NCBI GenBank assembly: GCA_004565275.1
Contig: SDOX01000183.1
Location: 432,192-496,191 of the forward strand
Source of the DNA: Nannochloropsis salina CCMP1776
Lineage: Eukaryota > Sar > Eustigmatophyceae > Eustigmatales > Monodopsidaceae
Direction of reading: 5' to 3'
Length of the DNA: 64,000 nt
Part shown: positions 2,375-61,005 of the stretch, in pieces
Layout: each line of letters begins with the position of its first letter
Numbering within the stretch: the stretch's first letter is position 1
The notes under the pieces: model-generated
The model's input: only the letters and a program-made list of their open reading frames with translations
Database searches by the model: none
Told to the model about the DNA's origin: nothing
Program-made: the position numbers and the translations under genes

Positions 2375-3515
2375 TCAAAAGCCTTCGGCTACCAACAAAT
2401 CTGTAATGCTTTCGAACCAGCTGTCACGAGCATCCGCATTGTATACAAAGAGATGGTTTCCTTGGATAAGTTCCATGTCAAAATCAGACCTTGTAAAGTT
2501 TCGCCACCCCTCAACCATTTTCTAAAGAGTGTGACGTGAAAGCAATGCGCGACATGAGTCGCAATTATAAGCTTCATGTCGTCTTTTGTCAAAAAGGATC
2601 GCTAAAACTTAGTGATCTTAAAGGATAACTCCACTCTTCCCATTTCATCACGCACCTTCGAGATTTTGCGGTCTTTCGAGGCGCAGTAGCCATGAATGGG
2701 GAAGTCAAATTTGTGGAAAGCTGTTTTCGGTTGAGGGTTTCTTATGAAATTTAGTCATACGCTCGGCATGTTGGATAAGCACATTACCTCATCACTATAT
2801 CCCGACCTTCAATGTTGTGCGTATATTGATCAAACAGTGTGAAATCTGCCCGGAGGAGCGGCTCGAAATTTGGCCAAACATCCGGCCGAAAGACGATCTC
2901 GTTTACATCCCACAGGCGGCACTCGGCTTGAAGTTGAGAGACATTCATCTCCCTATTAGGTTTCCATGGCTATGCATAATGTTGTAGTGGTATAGAGGAA
3001 TACTGAGGGAAATATTTTACTGCTTTACAAAAAATGAGCGCTGAAATGGAAAACTCATATACCTTGGCACTTGCAGCAATATCTGGTGAAGCCATGCAGG
3101 AGACAAAAAACATGCTTGGCATAGGCATAGCCATTGTTTTCATCAAACAGAGCATTTCATAGGCGATCCAGTTTCCGCAGCTGTGGGCGATCAAAACATA
3201 AGGCACGTCTTCCTCTTTCAGGTTCTCCTGGACCACCGGAAGAATTGCTGCCGCCATGGCTTGACATGTCTTAATAAAGGGCTCTTTCCGTCGCTGCTCA
3301 CGACCTGGATATTGAATTGCTAGAATCTCTGCTCGGGCATCCTTTGCCCAAGAAACCAACTTGTTTGGTTCCCGCCGCGTCCCACGCACCGCCGGACCGG
3401 TGTAAATATTTTCGGCGCTACCAGCGCTTGGAAAGCACAAAATTCGAAGCCGGACCTTATCTAAGGGTTTATACATGGGAAGCCAAGCCTTGATTTCATC
3501 ACTTGATACAGTCAT
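2375..3515 (-). CDS. Type II thioesterase (alpha/beta hydrolase), 288 aa
   Basis: Four exons close in phase: 3515-3063, 2969-2788, 2740-2656 and 2521-2375. The protein follows the GrsT/OLAH thioesterase II family along its whole length: an N-terminal CFPSAG strand, IQYPGRE near residue 69, the nucleophile elbow AHSCG with Ser112, the acid Asp235 in CASKDRKIS, and the catalytic His263 in QGNHLFV. The elbow is A-H-S-C-G rather than the usual G-H-S-x-G. Known members hydrolyse stalled or finished acyl chains from the carrier proteins of polyketide synthases, peptide synthetases or type I fatty acid synthase. There is no signal peptide, so it is probably cytosolic. No megasynthase is visible nearby, so its partner must lie elsewhere. 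Length is normal for the family. Confidence 0.85.
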
Positions 3516-4099
3516 TGCCAGTGCTGTGCTCGCGGCCGCCTTAAATATACGGGAATTTTCTCGTGAGGTGAAAAGAAAAAACGTCTGAAGATTGTTCTCT
3601 TACCTTGCCCGTGGGCTCCGAAGTCCTGGCAGTAGAAAAGCACAGACCAATGTTTACTGATGTCTATACTCTTTCAGGAAATTCGCGGGATATTTATATG
3701 ATTAAGAATCAATATTCGTAGCGCACGGCTGTCTCCGACACCCGATACTAAGCTTGTGTGGAAGCGACCCGCATTCATTTTTTTGAAAAAACGTTGAAGG
3801 GAAAACCATGGTTCCTAGCACTCGGCAGTGATTTGATTTTCATAAGTGCATGACAAGCTCCCGTAAGCTTCGAAAGTTACTTTCTTCCAGCGAAACAAAG
3901 TGCATAATCAGTCGTTGCTTATTTTTCATGCGATTTCAACGCCATCAATTTGCATTTCACCCGACTTCTAAGTCTTCGCAGTTTCACATTCGTTGGAGTG
4001 GAAGTGGGAGGTTTACTGAAACCATTAATATAAAAAAATATATTTGAGAGCCCATTTTTGAATCCTTTTTACAATTGTCCCCCTTGCGGGTTAATACTT
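3516..4099. other. Intergenic, thioesterase promoter and MiaB 3' flank
   Basis: This stretch lies between two minus-strand genes. A small open frame at 3850-4047 has no family resemblance and I do not regard it as a gene. I see no terminator-like repeat or RNA gene. Confidence 0.4.
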
Positions 4100-6870
4100 T
4101 CACGTTGCTAGCCCCGCACGTATCCCCGACAGCATGTACGACCTGACTTCTTTGATTAGAACAGGCACAAGTTTTCCCCGGAGCTCCTCTATGTTTCCTT
4201 CAAAGAGCACAGGTCGCCCTTGTCGGTTGCGGCCTTTGACGAGGCGTGGATCCTTCACATGACGACTCTCCACCAATACCTCAACCTCTCGACCCAGGTA
4301 GCGATGGTTGCGTTCCATCGCATGCTCAGCCGCTAGCTTGTTGATCCTTTGTAAGCGATCGGACTTGACTTCGTTAGATATTTGTTCTTCATATATAGCC
4401 GCGGGTGTATTAGGCCGAGGACTGTATGCGGCCGTATTGACCTGGTCGAATTTGACAATCTCCATCAGGCGAAGCGTGTTTTGAAATTGAGCCTCAGTCT
4501 CACCGGGAAAGCCAACGATGATGTCAGAGGTCACGGCAGCATCCGGTAGAAGGGAACGAATACGCTCCACGATCTTCAAGAATTTAGAAACAGTGTATCC
4601 TCGACTCATTTTCTTCAAAATATCGTCGTCTCCTGATTGAACAGGTACGTGGAACATCTCGCACATGTTGGGAATGGAGGCCACAGCATCCACTACGTTC
4701 ATAGACATGTACCGAGGATGACTTGTCACGAAGCGCACACGCTTTATTCCTTCTACTCGACCTACTGCATGCAAGAGATCGGAAAATTTTTGCTTGGGGG
4801 TCAGGTCTCGGCCCCAGGCATCAATGTTCTGGCCCAGGAGCGTAATTTCGCGGTAGCCCGAACGCGCCAGCTCCTCTATTTCTCGAATGACGGACTCGCG
4901 TGGCCGACTCTGTTCTGTATAAAATATGTCGCATGGACAGAAAATCAGAGAAGTCGTGGTTTGGAGCTTTCTCGCATTTCTGCGACACATTGGTACCCTA
5001 TTAAGAGCTAATTGAATAAACAGCAAGCCATGGGTAACCACCGACTGTCCATACCTGTTCCGCGAGTAGTAGGGACCACGCAATATGTGCAGCGTTCATT
5101 GCAGCCGTAGATAATGTTGACCCAGGCACGAATATCACTGTCCCTTCGGGGCTTACTGACATCCTCCATTATGTGAGTCGCCTCCGTGGCCACCACCTGG
5201 TTGCCGTCCATCACCTCCTCCAACAGATCCCCCAGTCGATTAGCATATTGTGGCCCGATCACTAAATCGACCTCTGGAAAGCGCGAAACGATGGCTTGCC
5301 CCTCCTGCTGGGCCACGCAACCCGCCACCACTATTGCCAGGTTGTCCCCGCGCTTCTTGCGGTTGACGTAGGGGCCCAAGTAACTGTAGACTTTTTGCTC
5401 TGCATGGTCACGGATGGAGCAGGTGTTGACGACCACAACGTCCGCCTTAGCCACCTCTTCCGATGAGGCAGCTTCCCGAAAGCCTAGTGCGCTTAACTGA
5501 CCCGCCATGCGCTCTGAGTCCGCTGTGTTCATGGCACAACCCATGGTCTCGACTGCGTACACGAGAGCTGCATCATCCTTATCTTTGGCCATCAGCTCCT
5601 TGAGGGGCGTGGGCAGTAGCCCACGCCCCTGCACCCGTCCTTGCGGTTTGCTCGTGTAACTGAGATCGAACATGACATCTTCGATTTTCACCAGATGAAA
5701 CCCGCGCAGGCTGGTAATCTTAAAGACATCGCCAGGTTTATGCTGTAGCGCTAATTCCCGCACATCCCGCGGAAGGACGTCCTCCATGAACTCGTCCGCC
5801 ATGCCGATCCATCCAACATCTCCGCCTGCGTCGCGCGTGACCTACATAAGAGAGCAAAGATGACTCAGTCGGGTTCTGAAGTAGAAGCGTTTTGACAAGA
5901 AGCAGCAACATTGAGCATACAAGACATTTCCTGGATCCTGAAGACACCCTTGCTGCCACATCATATCTTATCATTGGGATCTTACCGAGCAAGCTGAAAT
6001 TGCGGCCGCTAGGGCATGAAACTCAGCCCCCTTCTTCACGTCTTCGAAGAGGCTGTCGCACAAAGGTTCTGTCTGTTTATACGAGTGAACAATAAGCTAT
6101 AAAGTACATTAGTTTTTACGTCCCAAGAATTTGTTTCTCTAAAATGCAAGCCGATCAGTTCAAAAATGCTCGTCAAGCGCAGATGAAAGGTTCGAACCCC
6201 CCCAAAACTCACCTCCACAAGCAAATGTCGAGCCCGCACGGCAATCACACTCTTTCGTCGCTGGGCCTCTATACGTTCTTTGAAATCTTTAAGGGAAAGA
6301 TTCATGCTTTCTGCTCGAACAAAATGCCAAGTCAATCAAATGTAAGAGTTTAACATACTCGATGATATGTTTGCTGAAATAAAAGCTGCGTCGGGGCTTA
6401 AGTGTGCCTTACATTCGCGTGCATTCAAAAATCTACAAGAATCGAAAGCTCTTTTGTCTTCCAATTTCACTTCCCCCGCAAACATCTAAACAAGTCCGTC
6501 TTGGTGTCAAGTGCGATCACCAAAAGCCCATCAGACCTACCCTCCATTGTCTTGGCTCCACTTGTCTGCCATAACTTTTGCGCGGTGGCACTGCATGAAA
6601 TGTAGCTATGCTTACGTTGTCTACGAATTTCGTAACTTTGACAGGCACCCGGAAGATGTGCGTAAAATGAAAAGGGGGGGGGCGTCAATTTGAGGATACA
6701 AATATCATTTTACCTCCGTATCATTGTGATGCGCACCTATCAGAAGCGACGGCCGCAGGTGTCCTTCTTGAATCAAACCTCTGCAAGGCTGTAAAGCATT
6801 GCACGAGCGGAATGCCATGTGCAAGGAGTTCAGCCAAGAGGATTAGCACAAGCACTGGCCCCCTCACCAT
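4100..6870 (-). CDS. miaB: Plastid-targeted parvulin-MiaB fusion: tRNA methylthiotransferase
   Basis: Six exons close in phase: 6870-6737, 6590-6541, 6310-6213, 6072-5986, 5841-5055 and 4914-4100, giving 656 aa. Residues 1-24 form a signal peptide ending VQC before Phe, as in stramenopile plastid preproteins. Residues about 88-178 are a complete parvulin-type prolyl isomerase domain ([25 protein letters not shown]). From about 216 the protein is MiaB: Cys225, Cys264 (NTCSIR) and Cys297 (AGCVAQQEG) of the UPF0004 domain, the radical-SAM CNERCTYC (Cys370, 374, 377), and a C-terminal TRAM domain. MiaB adds a methylthio group to i6A37 of tRNAs; MiaB-type motifs favour it over MtaB or RimO. The parvulin domain is in frame across two clean splice junctions, so the fusion is not a gene-merging artefact of one junction. 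Confidence 0.88.
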
Positions 6871-46095: not shown

Positions 46096-47390
46096 TCAGC
46101 TCGCCCTTATTGGCCTTGCCTTTCCGCCCTTGACCCGGAGCTGCGCCTCCACGTACTCCTGCGCCTGAGTGCTGGCGTGGAAGCCGACCAGACGCGTCTG
46201 CTCGGGCTCATTGAGCATCCACTCCACGACACGGAGGAAGTCCAGAGTCTTCACCTCCCCCGGGGCCGCCCCGTGCTTGCCGGCCGTGCTCCTATCCCAG
46301 GCGTAGTACAGGTCCTCCATGGAGAAAAAGACTGGTTTGACCATCTCGCGGCCCTTCGCGATCCGCAGGTCAGGGCAGTAAAAGACGGGGAGCCCCGCGT
46401 TCCGCACCCCCTGCCGATTAAAGCCGAAGCGCCACTTGTCCGGGCGCTTGTCCAGCACGGCCTTCCAGCCCACCTTGCGGAAGCCGTTGGCATTTTTCAG
46501 CTGCTGCACGCTCGGACAGAACTGGAAGACGAGCATGTGGTTCCCGTTCCTGCGAGGCTCGCTCTGGACTAGCTCCAAGCCCTTGTCCAGGCCCATCACC
46601 AGCACGCGCGCGTCCGCCGTCTGCGGGTTCTGCACCATGCTTTGCAGCATTTCCTCCGCGTCCGCCGGGTCCAAGAAGACCACCCCTACGTCGAAGCCCG
46701 TCTCCAGGGGCACCAGGTAGGGCGAACCCTGCTGGTTGCACACCAGGAAGCAAGGCACCGAGGCCAGCTTCTCCTTCAGAGTCCGCCGAGAGAAGGGCTT
46801 CAGGCTGAAAGCCTCGGCGGAGGGGGGGCGGACTATTCTTTGCAACGCTGTACCTACGTCATTCCGACCCTCTTTTACGCCTGATCGTGTCAGCATGGAT
46901 GGAGGAGGAGCGTGAGGACGACTTGCACGAGCGCAGCCCACCATCCCGAGAACCACCGCACAGCAAACACTGTCTGAACCTCACGCCTGGGGCTTGAATT
47001 AGAAAGATACTAACCTTTTATGACGTCCACTGTTTCCGGAGCTCCAAACCCTGCCACAATGGCAGCTCCGGTCCCAAACGTCAATTTGCCCATATTTTCA
47101 ACCCCGAAGCTCAACTTTGTCTTGAGAGTACCCCATGCCGAGACTGTGCGCGATGTTTGCCCTTCTTCCCTACCACATGCACTTCTTGTCTCTCCGTTAT
47201 CGCCTTCACTAGCGCATCGGGTTGATCGACGGGGATGAACTCCGTTCGCGTGTGCGAACGGACCGCTGCTGCCAGGCTGAAAAGCTAGGACGCAGACTCC
47301 ATGCAGGACCTCCACTAACAGGAGAACCAATAGCATAAAGCTGGCACCAGACCCCCTGCATCGTGCCATCCTACCAAGTGCATGTATCAT
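46096..47390 (-). CDS. TIC22: Tic22-like plastid protein, 386 aa
   Basis: Two exons close in phase: 47390-47015 and 46880-46096. The N-terminus carries a signal peptide (FMLLVLLLVEVLHGVCVLA) ending directly before Phe-Gln-Pro, the plastid-import signature. From about residue 155 the sequence matches the Tic22 family: VPCFLVCNQQGSPYLVP, GVVFLDPADAEEML, ARVLVMGLDKGLELVQ, and later VFYCPDLRI and KPVFFSMEDL. Tic22 proteins act as chaperones in the space between plastid envelope membranes during protein import. The segment around 118-150 is variable. The Met at 47390 was chosen because it leads directly into the signal peptide; the Met at 47369 is also possible. Confidence 0.8.
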
Positions 47391-47879: not shown

Positions 47880-49393
47880 ATGGCCCACATCCACATCGCA
47901 AGAAAAATGTTAGGATCAAGGCGCCGCTCGGCTGCAAGAACGTTTGCCTGCTGTATTGTGGCTTTAGGATGCGTTGCGTGGTCGTCACATGCTGCATTTA
48001 TATCTCCTCTGCACCACTTTGGTGGGCGCGCTCGAGGCCGGGTACATACTGCGGTCGTAGCGGAACGCCCGTCAATGCAGCCCACTCCGTCCATATACTC
48101 CGCCGCCACGGGCCACGGGGAAGAAGAGCCCGAAGCACCGCGATTAAATTCAGACGTAGAAGAGAGAAGGGGAAGTCCGCGAGAGCTAGAGCGGAAAAAG
48201 AAGCATTTCGACTTTCTGAAGGTACGTGTCGCAAGACAGAGGATGGTACACCGAATCAAAAATTGTGACTGTCTGGTCCAATCGGCGTGAAGCGACAGTA
48301 AATCTTTAATGTACGCTTTGTGTGTATGACTTTAACCTATTTTACAAGTGAACATTGCTTTCAACTTTCTACGCGCTCTATGCCCGCCTTCCCTCAGGAG
48401 GTCGGCAAAAACAAGAAGCAAGCCCGGGCCAACAAGGCTAGATTCCGAGACCAGCGAGACGAATACCTGGAGGAGATGCGCAAGGCATTCAAGCTCATGC
48501 AGATAAAAGAGCGACAGGAGAGCGGCTTCAAATGGGTGAAGAGGCCGAAGCGCGAGAGGCAGATCCCGCTGGGAGAGCTTGAGTTAGGCTCCCGGCACGA
48601 GGGGGTGGTGATAACGGTGAAGGAGCACGGGGCCTACGTGGACTTCGGGGCGACGAAGGATGGCTTCGTACGCCTGCGCGACTTGAGCGATCGGGATTTC
48701 GTGCTGGACGCGCGCGACTACGTGAGGCCCGGGGACTCGGTCAGCTTCTTCGTCAAGTACCTGAGTCCCGCCGAGGGCATCGTCACGGGGAGTCTGGTGC
48801 CGGCCGAGGTGGAGACGGCGGAGGAGCAGGAGGCCCGCACGGGCCTGGAGGAGGTGGAGGAGGACGACGAGCTGTGGGGCGAGGTGACCAAGGTCTCCAA
48901 CTACGGGGCATTCGTGGACGTGGGCGCGGAGGTGCAGGGCTTCTTGCACGTGATCTACTATCCGAGGCGCAGCCAGGGGGCCCTCACGCAGGACGTATTC
49001 TTCCCTGGCATGCGCCTGCGGGTCTGGGCCATGGAGGTGGACAGGGGCAGGCGCCGGCTCAAGCTGACGGGCGAGAGGCCCCGCTCTTTGCCGCGCGTGG
49101 ACTACTCCTGGTTCTTGGGGGGCTACGAGGTGGCGGGCTCAGAGGCAGCCCCGGGGAGGGGCTTCGTGGAGGAAGAGTGGCGACGGCCGCTGTATGAGGA
49201 GGGGCAGGGCCTGCAACCGCGGGGCCGCGGGAAGCGGGCGATGGAGAGGATCCGGGAATGGGGGTTTGAAACGGACGGGGGGCGGGAGAAGGAGGTGCTC
49301 CATGACTTGGACGCTGCCAGACGGCGGAAAGGGGAGGAGGAGGAGGCAACGGCATCGGCGTCAGTGGAGGAGAGAGTAGGCAAGCAGCCGTAG
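47880..49393 (+). CDS. Plastid S1-domain RNA-binding protein, 445 aa
   Basis: Two exons close in phase: 47880-48221 and 48398-49393. The signal peptide (FACCIVALGCVAWSSHAA) ends before Phe-Ile-Ser, the plastid-import signature. Two S1 folds follow: about 177-247 (RHEGVVITVKEHGAYVDFG) and about 272-342 (LWGEVTKVSNYGAFVDVG). The linker between them is acidic and the tail is Arg/Glu-rich. S1 proteins of this kind bind mRNA at the plastid ribosome (bS1-like) or belong to the S1-EF-Ts polyproteins; no EF-Ts part is visible here, so I favour an S1-type ribosome-associated factor. Exact role is not settled. Confidence 0.8.
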
Positions 49394-58565: not shown

Positions 58566-59121
58566 ATCTGTCCCTCCCCGCAAATATGCACAGTTTGACA
58601 GCTCCCTGCGGAAAGGGATATGTAGAGGACGGGAAACACTCATGAACGCGAATCGGATCGATGTTCTTCAGACATCAATTTGAAAAAGCGAAACGAAACG
58701 CTGTTATAGATGGGCTTCGAAGACTTCCTAAGCGCGAAGAAGCGATGCAAGCGAGAAAGCAAAGAGCAAAGACAATTAAGGGGGAGCACGAATTTCATCA
58801 CACGTCGTACATTCCAACAGCCATGAAAGCTGCCCTTTTCCCCCCATTCATGATGTGGGGCAGGCTTGGCACTCTCAATTTCTTATCCTCCGCTGCGGCT
58901 CGAGGAGGGGCCCTGGCGGTTGAGGTCTTTTCCATCACAGCCCCGCGTCATCACTCCTCGCCCGCACTTCAGCTTCCTCCTCCTGTTGCAGCGGAAAGCG
59001 TTCTCAGACTCATTGCTCATCTCATTCTGTTGTGCAGGCCGCTGCGGAGACATATCAAGGGAGAGGTAGTCTTAGAGCTGTATTTTGCAGCTTATTTCTG
59101 TCTTTAGCGCTCCAAAAGGGA
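58566..59121. promoter_or_regulatory. Divergent promoter region, RPT6 / MnmE
   Basis: A plus-strand frame from an ATG at 58661 to 59107 (148 codons) begins with a basic segment (RNAVIDGLRRLPKREE) and then becomes hydrophobic and nondescript. I do not recognise it, and it overlaps the MnmE leader, so I keep it as a possible upstream exon or chance frame, not as a gene. Confidence 0.35.
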
Positions 59122-61005
59122 ATGCGCGACAGCAAACGGCTTCCTCTCTCCTTTCTCCTCCTCGCCACCTTTCTACTACTTAAACTTGACATCACGATCA
59201 CAAAAAGCGCGGTGTCGACCGCTCAAATGGTTCCTTCGTTGATGAAAAGGCATAGTTGTGTCATGCCTTCCTTGACAGCGACAAGGCGCTCGTGTGGCTT
59301 TCTTCCTTCGAAATATTTCCCTACATCGACAGTACGAATAAGAAGCGAACGGTTGCGCTCGTATTACCCTGCACCAGCTCATCCTCTGACCTGCCAAAAA
59401 TTAAAAATACCATCTTTACAATCATTGTCGTCATTCCCATGTCCTGTTGACGTGCGGAAAAGGACCAGACTCGCTGCGACGCAAGTGCAAGAGAGGACAC
59501 CGCCAGTTGAAGATACCATTTTCGCGCTCTCTTCGGGCCAGGGCCGGGCCGGCGTGGCAGTTATACGTATATCTGGGCCCCAGGCAAAGGAGTGTTTAGC
59601 CATCCTCATGGATTCGCATAGCGGACATTCCTCCGCACCTTTCCCGGCGCCCCGCATGGCGTCCCTCCGGAAGCTCTACTCCCCTGTCGGACAGGAGGCA
59701 CTGGACCAAGCCATCGTCCTCTGGCTCCCAGGCCCCCGCTCCTTCACCGGCGAAGACACGGTGGAGCTTCACTGCCACGGCAGCCGAGCTGTCGTCCAGG
59801 GCGTGACAGAGGCCCTACTTGCCCTGGACAAGGGGGGCAAGGCTCGAGTCCGCCTGGCGGAGCCCGGTGAGTTCACCGAGCGAGCTTTCGCGAATGGGAG
59901 GATGGATTTGACGGAGGTAGAGGGCCTGGCCGACCTGATCGCGGCTGACACGGCCGCGCAGCGGAAACAGGCGTTGAAGCAGATGGGCGGGGCCTTGCGT
60001 CAGACGTACGAGGGGTGGCGGGAGGAGCTCAAGGTGTGCCTGGCCCATACGGAGGCGGTCATCGACTTCGGCGACGACGAGTTAGACGTGGACGAGGCCG
60101 CCTACGACGCCATCCGGCCCCGCGTGAGGAGGCTGAGCGAGGAGATGCGGCGCCATCTGGCGGACGGGGGGCGGGGGGAGGTGATCCGCGCGGGCATACG
60201 CGTCGCCATCGTGGGCCCGCCCAACGCAGGCAAGAGCACCATGCTCAACACCCTGGCGCGCAGGCCGGCCGCGATCGTCTCGCCCGCGGCGGGCACTACG
60301 CGGGATGTGGTGGAGGTCCAGTTGGACGTGGGGGGCCTGCCCGTACTGGTCAGCGACACGGCGGGCATCCGCGAGGCGGCGCGAGACCCGGTGGAGCAGG
60401 AGGGGATTCGGCGCGCGCGGGAGGCAGCGGGGCGGGCTCAGCTGACGGTGCTGGTCCTGGACGCCGCGGAGGTGCTGGGGCGAGAGGCCTTCGCGTCCCT
60501 GGCGGGCGTAGGGCCGTTCTTAAAGGACGCGCCGCCCGAGGACCTGGAGACGGTCCTTAGAGCGGTGGGGGGGGACGCGGGCGCTCTCCTTGTGCTGAAC
60601 AAGCGGGACACGGTGGAGGGCGAACACTTGCTGGAGCAGCTCCGATGTGCGGGGGCCGGGAAGGGAGGGACATCCACGGCCGCCTACTTGGTCTCCCTGT
60701 CCACTGGGGAAGGGGTGGAGGAGATGCTAGCAGGACTGCAGGCGCGGTTGGAGGAGGTGTTTGACAAGGATGGGACGGACGACGAGCGCGCGGAAGCCCC
60801 TGTCATCACCCGTGCGCGGCACCGCGTGCACGTGGAGCGATGCCTGGAGGCGCTGACGGCGTCCATGGGGGAACAGGGCCTGGGCTTGGATGTGGCCGCT
60901 GAGGAGCTGCGGATCGCCTCGACGGAGCTGGGGCGAATCACGGGGGCAGTGGACGTGGAGGAGGTGCTGGATGTGATATTCCGAGACTTTTGTATTGGGA
61001 AATGA
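59122..61005 (+). CDS. mnmE: tRNA-modification GTPase MnmE, organelle-targeted, 627 aa
   Basis: This is a single exon from the ATG at 59122. After an N-terminal extension of about 130 residues with an early hydrophobic stretch (LPLSFLLLATFLLLKLD), the MnmE tetrahydrofolate-binding domain starts at DTIFALSSGQGRAGVAVIR and continues through FTGEDTVELHCHG and EFTERAFANGRMDLTEVEGLADLI. The G domain shows GPPNAGKST (from 365), GTTRD, DTAGI and NKRD, and the protein ends with the conserved CIGK, with Cys624. MnmE works with MnmG (GidA) to modify U34 of tRNAs in bacteria and organelles. The hydrophobic start suggests plastid or mitochondrial import; which one is uncertain. It ends convergently, 131 bases from the UDG gene. 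Confidence 0.93.
   Translation: MRDSKRLPLSFLLLATFLLLKLDITITKSAVSTAQMVPSLMKRHSCVMPSLTATRRSCGFLPSKYFPTSTVRIRSERLRSYYPAPAHPLTCQKLKIPSLQSLSSFPCPVDVRKRTRLAATQVQERTPPVEDTIFALSSGQGRAGVAVIRISGPQAKECLAILMDSHSGHSSAPFPAPRMASLRKLYSPVGQEALDQAIVLWLPGPRSFTGEDTVELHCHGSRAVVQGVTEALLALDKGGKARVRLAEPGEFTERAFANGRMDLTEVEGLADLIAADTAAQRKQALKQMGGALRQTYEGWREELKVCLAHTEAVIDFGDDELDVDEAAYDAIRPRVRRLSEEMRRHLADGGRGEVIRAGIRVAIVGPPNAGKSTMLNTLARRPAAIVSPAAGTTRDVVEVQLDVGGLPVLVSDTAGIREAARDPVEQEGIRRAREAAGRAQLTVLVLDAAEVLGREAFASLAGVGPFLKDAPPEDLETVLRAVGGDAGALLVLNKRDTVEGEHLLEQLRCAGAGKGGTSTAAYLVSLSTGEGVEEMLAGLQARLEEVFDKDGTDDERAEAPVITRARHRVHVERCLEALTASMGEQGLGLDVAAEELRIASTELGRITGAVDVEEVLDVIFRDFCIGK

Follow-up and report, generated by a model that had tools for sequence, protein, structure and literature searches.

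The gene and its surroundings

The window, a 64,000-nucleotide stretch of contig SDOX01000183.1 of Nannochloropsis salina CCMP1776, contains on its minus strand a gene that joins a parvulin (PPIC-type) domain to a tRNA methylthiotransferase of the MiaB type, behind a targeting-type presequence (Table 1). Splicing its six exons from the DNA, from 6870 down to 4100, rebuilds a single frame of 656 residues (1971 bases) that ends in TGA and has no internal stops; all splice phases close. Each of the five introns is bounded by GT...AG and is 140-230 bases long, with a GC content of 39-44% as against 54% in the exons. An earlier note on this DNA had described one six-exon gene with closing phases, encoding a complete parvulin domain and a full MiaB (UPF0004, radical SAM and TRAM) downstream of a plastid-type presequence, and that description stands.

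Table 1. Exons, domains and linker of the parvulin-MiaB gene (positions are those of the window)
Feature	Position	Strand	Basis
Exon 1: signal peptide (residues 1-25, 6870-6796) and beginning of the transit-peptide-like stretch	6737..6870	minus	splice phase; hydrophobic core and small-X^Phe motif
Exon 2: rest of the transit-like stretch	6541..6590	minus	GT-AG borders and phase only
Exon 3: first part of the parvulin domain (ARHLLVE, His90)	6213..6310	minus	splicing; Pfam; parvulin alignment
Exon 4: middle part of the parvulin domain (Cys122)	5986..6072	minus	splicing; Pfam; parvulin alignment; frame-wise profile scores
Exon 5: end of parvulin (Ser167, His172), linker 179-217, UPF0004, radical-SAM CxxxCxxC, fusion junction	5055..5841	minus	open frame; splicing; Pfam
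Exon 6: remainder of radical SAM, TRAM domain, TGA stop	4100..4914	minus	splicing; Pfam
Parvulin (PPIC-type) domain, residues 85-178, across exons 3-5	5677..6242	minus	Rotamase_3 E 1.8e-9; solved relatives PrsA, PpiD, SurA
Parvulin-MiaB linker, residues 179-217	5560..5676	minus	splicing; Pfam borders
UPF0004 domain, residues 218-319 (C225, C264, C298)	5254..5559	minus	Pfam
Radical SAM domain, residues 364-535, split by intron 5 (C370, C374, C377)	4466..5121	minus	Pfam
TRAM domain, residues 590-649	4124..4303	minus	Pfam

The junction between the two halves lies within exon 5, which is part of one open stretch (5008-5841, 277 codons) that holds the second half of the parvulin domain, the linker and the start of MiaB together. 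For that junction a model of two neighboring genes is thereby ruled out, and it is rejected whichever splice sites are called. For the domain's first half, splicing of exons 3 and 4 is required. (What this means in terms of scores is that a parvulin profile made from 8 rows gives 17.1 and 7.5 bits with the unspliced frames at the domain's place, and 38.2 bits with the spliced protein). Exons 1 and 2 are assigned from their splice phase and from the targeting signal, and codon preference gave no discrimination for the gene model. The parvulin-MiaB fusion looks real as one gene. That the model instead merges separate parvulin and MiaB transcripts, with MiaB starting, for example, inside exon 5, is very improbable: in-frame ATGs do exist in that exon (Met207, just before MiaB, is one of them), but half of the parvulin domain shares the open exon with the linker and the MiaB start, and parvulin has no stop of its own ahead of MiaB in a frame whose phases all close. 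An internal start, e.g. at Met207, is possible as the source of a second product. The linker of about 39 residues between the domains and the position of Met207 just before the MiaB core would also suit a single import cargo from which cleavage inside the plastid releases the parvulin foldase and MiaB as separate proteins; we know of no processing site in the linker, however, and such a division of the protein is rather unlikely.

Exon 1 encodes a hydrophobic signal peptide whose predicted cleavage, VQC^FTALQ, places Phe at +1. By a crude rule of our own making (not SignalP or ASAFind), 15 of the 680 ATGs in the window that are followed by 40 open codons have a hydrophobic core and 4 of these also have the small-residue/Phe motif; the 4 correspond to only two distinct places, one of them the parvulin-MiaB gene. 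A Phe in the +1 position is characteristic of proteins of red-type complex plastids. PMC5462543 mentions the ASAFAP motif of ochrophytes. The signal peptide and Phe motif suggest that the parvulin-MiaB protein is imported into the plastid. The second place, 47336-47390 on the minus strand, has a signal peptide with the plastid-type Phe motif VCVLA^FQPGS and probably belongs to another plastid-targeted protein; the 126 codons from 47390 to 47013 have no Pfam match.

Other genes of the window are ordinary eukaryotic ones (a protein kinase with an ATG1-like MIT match, Vps36, a proteasomal-ATPase-like AAA protein and GH47). This nuclear setting and the presequence would fit the stramenopile origin implied in the earlier note. 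A partial thioesterase-domain (alpha/beta hydrolase) frame at 2973-3599 on the minus strand adjoins the parvulin-MiaB gene and is likely an exon of a larger gene. On the plus strand of the same contig lie MnmE, an organelle-type tRNA-modifying GTPase (58924-61002; TrmE_N, MMR_HSR1 and MnmE_helical), and a protein with two S1 RNA-binding stretches (48302-49390), possibly organellar ribosomal S1-like.

The MiaB half and its descent

In the spliced protein the UPF0004 (E 6.3e-28), Radical_SAM (2.9e-28) and TRAM (1.8e-7) matches are all above the curated Pfam cut-offs. The assignment to MiaB, as distinct from related methylthiotransferases, comes from the equivalog model TIGR01574 of NCBIfam (445.9 bits, cut-off 355.3), with MtaB (321.5 bits, cut-off 357.05) and RimO (293.4 bits, cut-off 356.95) both falling below; a narrower MiaB model, NF010916, is also below its cut-off (342.1 against 606). 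The top solved relative is the MiaB of PDB 7mjz (E 1.1e-79), presumably the Bacteroides protein. Six cysteines, C225, C264 and C298 together with C370, C374 and C377, occupy columns that do not vary when the protein is aligned with 7 cyanobacterial MiaB rows; we take them to be the ligands, three each, of two 4Fe-4S clusters. The protein would be expected to act in methylthiolation of i6A37, and i6A or ms2i6A is confirmed on several chloroplast tRNAs (PMC8877259).

The affinity of this half is cyanobacterial (endosymbiont), as expected for a plastid enzyme. In a tree of 34 rows it groups with 23 rows from cyanobacterial genomes, at a branch supported 99/96, its own branch being long, so that the usual long-branch caution applies. 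(19 of the 23 rows come from named cyanobacteria and 4 from further searches, one of these being identical to a named row; the rest of the tree consists of nine less similar rows, of 41-44% identity, from the search of the cyanobacterial phylum, and of the 7mjz MiaB). Identity to the cyanobacterial MiaB proteins compared is 52-61%. A genome scan returned 433 relatives, and all 80 that were kept, at 52-60% identity, are cyanobacterial by title, a result that taken alone is biased, since the DNA patterns of the scan favor close relatives; none of them matched before residue 200 of the fusion. Cyanobacterium-like miaB genes acquired by plants through transfer from plastids are already published (PMC2530860). 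With the cyanobacterial grouping, the plant precedent and i6A or ms2i6A on chloroplast tRNAs, the MiaB half is ordinary, and it is the parvulin that is not.

The parvulin half: intact tetrad, altered pocket

The parvulin domain is matched by two Pfam models in the spliced protein, Rotamase_3 (38.6 bits, cut-off 22.5) and Rotamase (29.8 bits, E 1.3e-6, cut-off 21.7), and its best solved relatives are matched at E of about 1e-5. The parvulin catalytic tetrad, C/D-H-H-T/S, has been defined for NmPin (PMC4922055), and in a comparison of 9 aligned parvulin rows (PrsA1 absent) it is intact in the present domain, as C122, H90, H172 and S167. PDB 2m08, annotated as a PpiC-type isomerase, is probably NmPin, since its H10, D42, S82 and H87 fit the numbering in PMC4922055. 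Cys is acceptable at the tetrad position of C122, in that NmPin D42C has wild-type efficiency according to its authors (data not shown there; PMC4922055).

The proline pocket is a different matter. Residues M57, F61 and F81 of PpiC correspond to L146, V150 and R169, so that the pocket is not PpiC-like, the placement of L146 and V150 being uncertain, maybe by one residue, because an insertion of about 6 residues relative to the aligned parvulins (10 rows) adjoins them, just before the pocket. In PpiC itself, PPIase activity is lost in F81A, while M57A keeps a substantial part of it (PMC7353009). With the pocket altered, and Arg at the position where PpiC F81A is inactive, catalysis cannot be assumed; the domain is therefore classed as parvulin-family and not as a proven isomerase. 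It may be best regarded as a peptide-binding domain for which isomerase activity, perhaps weak, is possible.

The three changed pocket positions, one of them to Arg, could also be read as the mark of a non-catalytic binding module that has lost its isomerase function and that docks a cluster donor, ferredoxin or tRNA, or offers a chaperone face. Chaperones with an inactive parvulin have been described: the parvulin domain of PpiD is reported to be without detectable PPIase activity, contradicting an older report (PMC2956729). Yet PpiD lacks both tetrad His residues in the same alignment in which the present domain keeps all four tetrad residues. We place a non-catalytic module second to the folding helper discussed below, as a less likely account of the domain.

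Two further roles that do not involve MiaB folding would give the parvulin domain a function in trans on nascent plastid proteins, or make Cys122 a redox sensor that tunes tRNA modification. In Arabidopsis PIN1, H2O2 oxidises the equivalent residue, Cys69, and activity falls two-fold, an effect that DTT reverses (PMC8716364), and the plant Pin3-type proteins also combine a parvulin with another domain, rhodanese (PMC9797600); but the case for either role is purely inferential, and we consider the pair of them improbable. The suggestion in the earlier note that the fusion couples tRNA modification to nascent chains on plastid ribosomes gains no support from anything seen here.

Where the fusion occurs and where its halves come from

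The fusion query (593 residues) finds matches in all 194 genomes of the cyanobacterial phylum, and the fusion is absent among the matches listed, which cover 150 of these genomes. In none of those listed matches does the alignment begin before query residue 110 (in the query's numbering the parvulin extends to 115), and the open frames, at most 571 residues long, are too short for the query. Neither does a parvulin lie beside cyanobacterial miaB: in 2463 frames around 80 loci (up to 5 kb on either side, less at contig ends) the parvulin profile finds no match at E values up to 1, and the same profile recovers 12 of 12 cyanobacterial parvulin loci (the 12 loci returned for 17 matches) as a control. 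An origin of the fusion from a cyanobacterial operon is thus not supported. Viral contigs gave 11 pattern matches to the fusion query and no relative; a query with the MiaB alignment yielded 19 viral loci at 36-46% identity, whose 915 frames contain no convincing match to the parvulin profile (best E 0.099).

The earlier note had taken relatives in which the two domains are always separate genes as speaking against it. In the prokaryotes surveyed, mainly cyanobacteria, no fusion was indeed seen, which is also as expected if the fusion is eukaryotic. Its absence from the cyanobacteria listed suggests that the fusion probably arose in a eukaryote. The cyanobacterial MiaB genes seen are without a fused parvulin; a need for one is therefore not general in this enzyme, which speaks against the helper role proposed below.

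The parvulin half, for its part, may be of non-cyanobacterial origin, being unlike the 12 cyanobacterial parvulin loci. In tblastn it gives weak alignments with two of these only, at E above 1, and phmmer with the window's parvulin domain alone finds none of the 12.

A folding helper in cis?

The reading that we tentatively favor, with somewhat less than even confidence, is that of a tRNA A37 methylthiotransferase of cyanobacterial descent that is imported into the plastid and whose own N-terminal parvulin serves as an in-cis helper in folding and cluster loading. The protein would enter the plastid unfolded and the parvulin domain would fold first; tethered by the linker, it would bind proline-containing stretches of the MiaB part and speed or protect the folding of these stretches as the two 4Fe-4S clusters are inserted. 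The parvulin would thus act on MiaB in cis, as NifM does on NifH in trans, and the mature enzyme would make ms2i6A on plastid tRNAs.

Two sets of observations lead to this preference. In E. coli, the prolyl isomerase PpiB and MiaB co-purify, less so when PpiB carries the active-site mutation R43A (PMC7353009). PpiB is a cyclophilin and not a parvulin, and MiaB is not among the substrates named for the parvulin PpiC in what PMC7353009 reports. The second precedent is NifM, whose main part is a C-terminal PpiC domain and without which, in some bacteria, the 4Fe-4S protein NifH does not mature (PMC12691677); in plant mitochondria, soluble NifH fusions accompanied co-expression of NifM (PMC13385145). 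The analogy has to be tempered, since the authors were unable to demonstrate isomerase activity for NifM, and bacteria that have no nifM still mature their NifH (PMC12691677). The idea that the parvulin helps MiaB fold and acquire its clusters, already put forward in the earlier note, therefore keeps its fit to the PpiB-MiaB and NifM-NifH facts, but with catalysis unsettled and the proline pocket altered. Of the picture as a whole, the gene structure, the domains, the cluster cysteines, the tetrad, the cyanobacterial affinity of MiaB and the targeting-type presequence are observed, whereas plastid import, MiaB activity, any PPIase activity and the helper role in cis are inferred.

A more elaborate form of the proposal is speculative and rather unlikely: a self-chaperoned radical-SAM enzyme, in which a plastid lineage has attached a NifM-like parvulin to MiaB and the one polypeptide guides the folding and 4Fe-4S loading of its own catalytic half after import, with the redox state of Cys122 perhaps acting as a gate. 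If true, nature would have supplied a version in cis of the NifM-NifH pair. The reason that certain Fe-S proteins depend on dedicated prolyl isomerases is open even for NifM (PMC12691677). A natural parvulin-radical SAM fusion would have the helper and its client encoded together, and deleting one domain could put the question to the test.

Comparison with known systems

Searches of the main texts of open-licence papers turned up no parvulin-MiaB fusion protein, nor any paper that pairs rotamase with methylthiotransferase or Nannochloropsis with MiaB. The single paper found to mention both parvulin and MiaB (PMC7353009) describes no fusion in its passages on these proteins. Two papers on chimeric genes, PMC5462543 and PMC5851275, mention neither MiaB nor parvulin in their main texts. 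Chimeric plastid-targeted proteins as such have already been reported for ochrophytes (PMC5462543), and the present gene, possibly a chimera of a cyanobacterial-type MiaB half and a parvulin half, would add to them.

The MiaB half shares with cyanobacterial and plastid MiaB (TIGR01574) the UPF0004, radical SAM and TRAM domains and the six cluster cysteines; those proteins are without the N-terminal parvulin domain that is extra here. With the PPIC-type parvulins (PpiC, PrsA, PpiD, SurA, NmPin) the N-terminal half has in common the domain match and the C/D-H-H-T/S tetrad, and it differs from them in its insertion of about 6 residues, in having L146, V150 and R169 in the pocket, and in being fused to an enzyme.

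Domains of the rhodanese type belong to sulfur chemistry. In the plant Pin3-type proteins (AtPin3, TaPar32) a parvulin is joined to a rhodanese domain (PMC9797600), whereas here the partner is a radical SAM methylthiotransferase. Parvulin-rhodanese fusions and chimeric plastid proteins are thus known, and what appears to be new is a parvulin joined to MiaB. In NifM a parvulin domain is tied to the maturation of a 4Fe-4S protein (PMC12691677), as is proposed here. NifM, however, is a separate protein with an N-terminal domain of its own, while the present domain is fused to its presumed client, and NifH and MiaB are different kinds of Fe-S protein.
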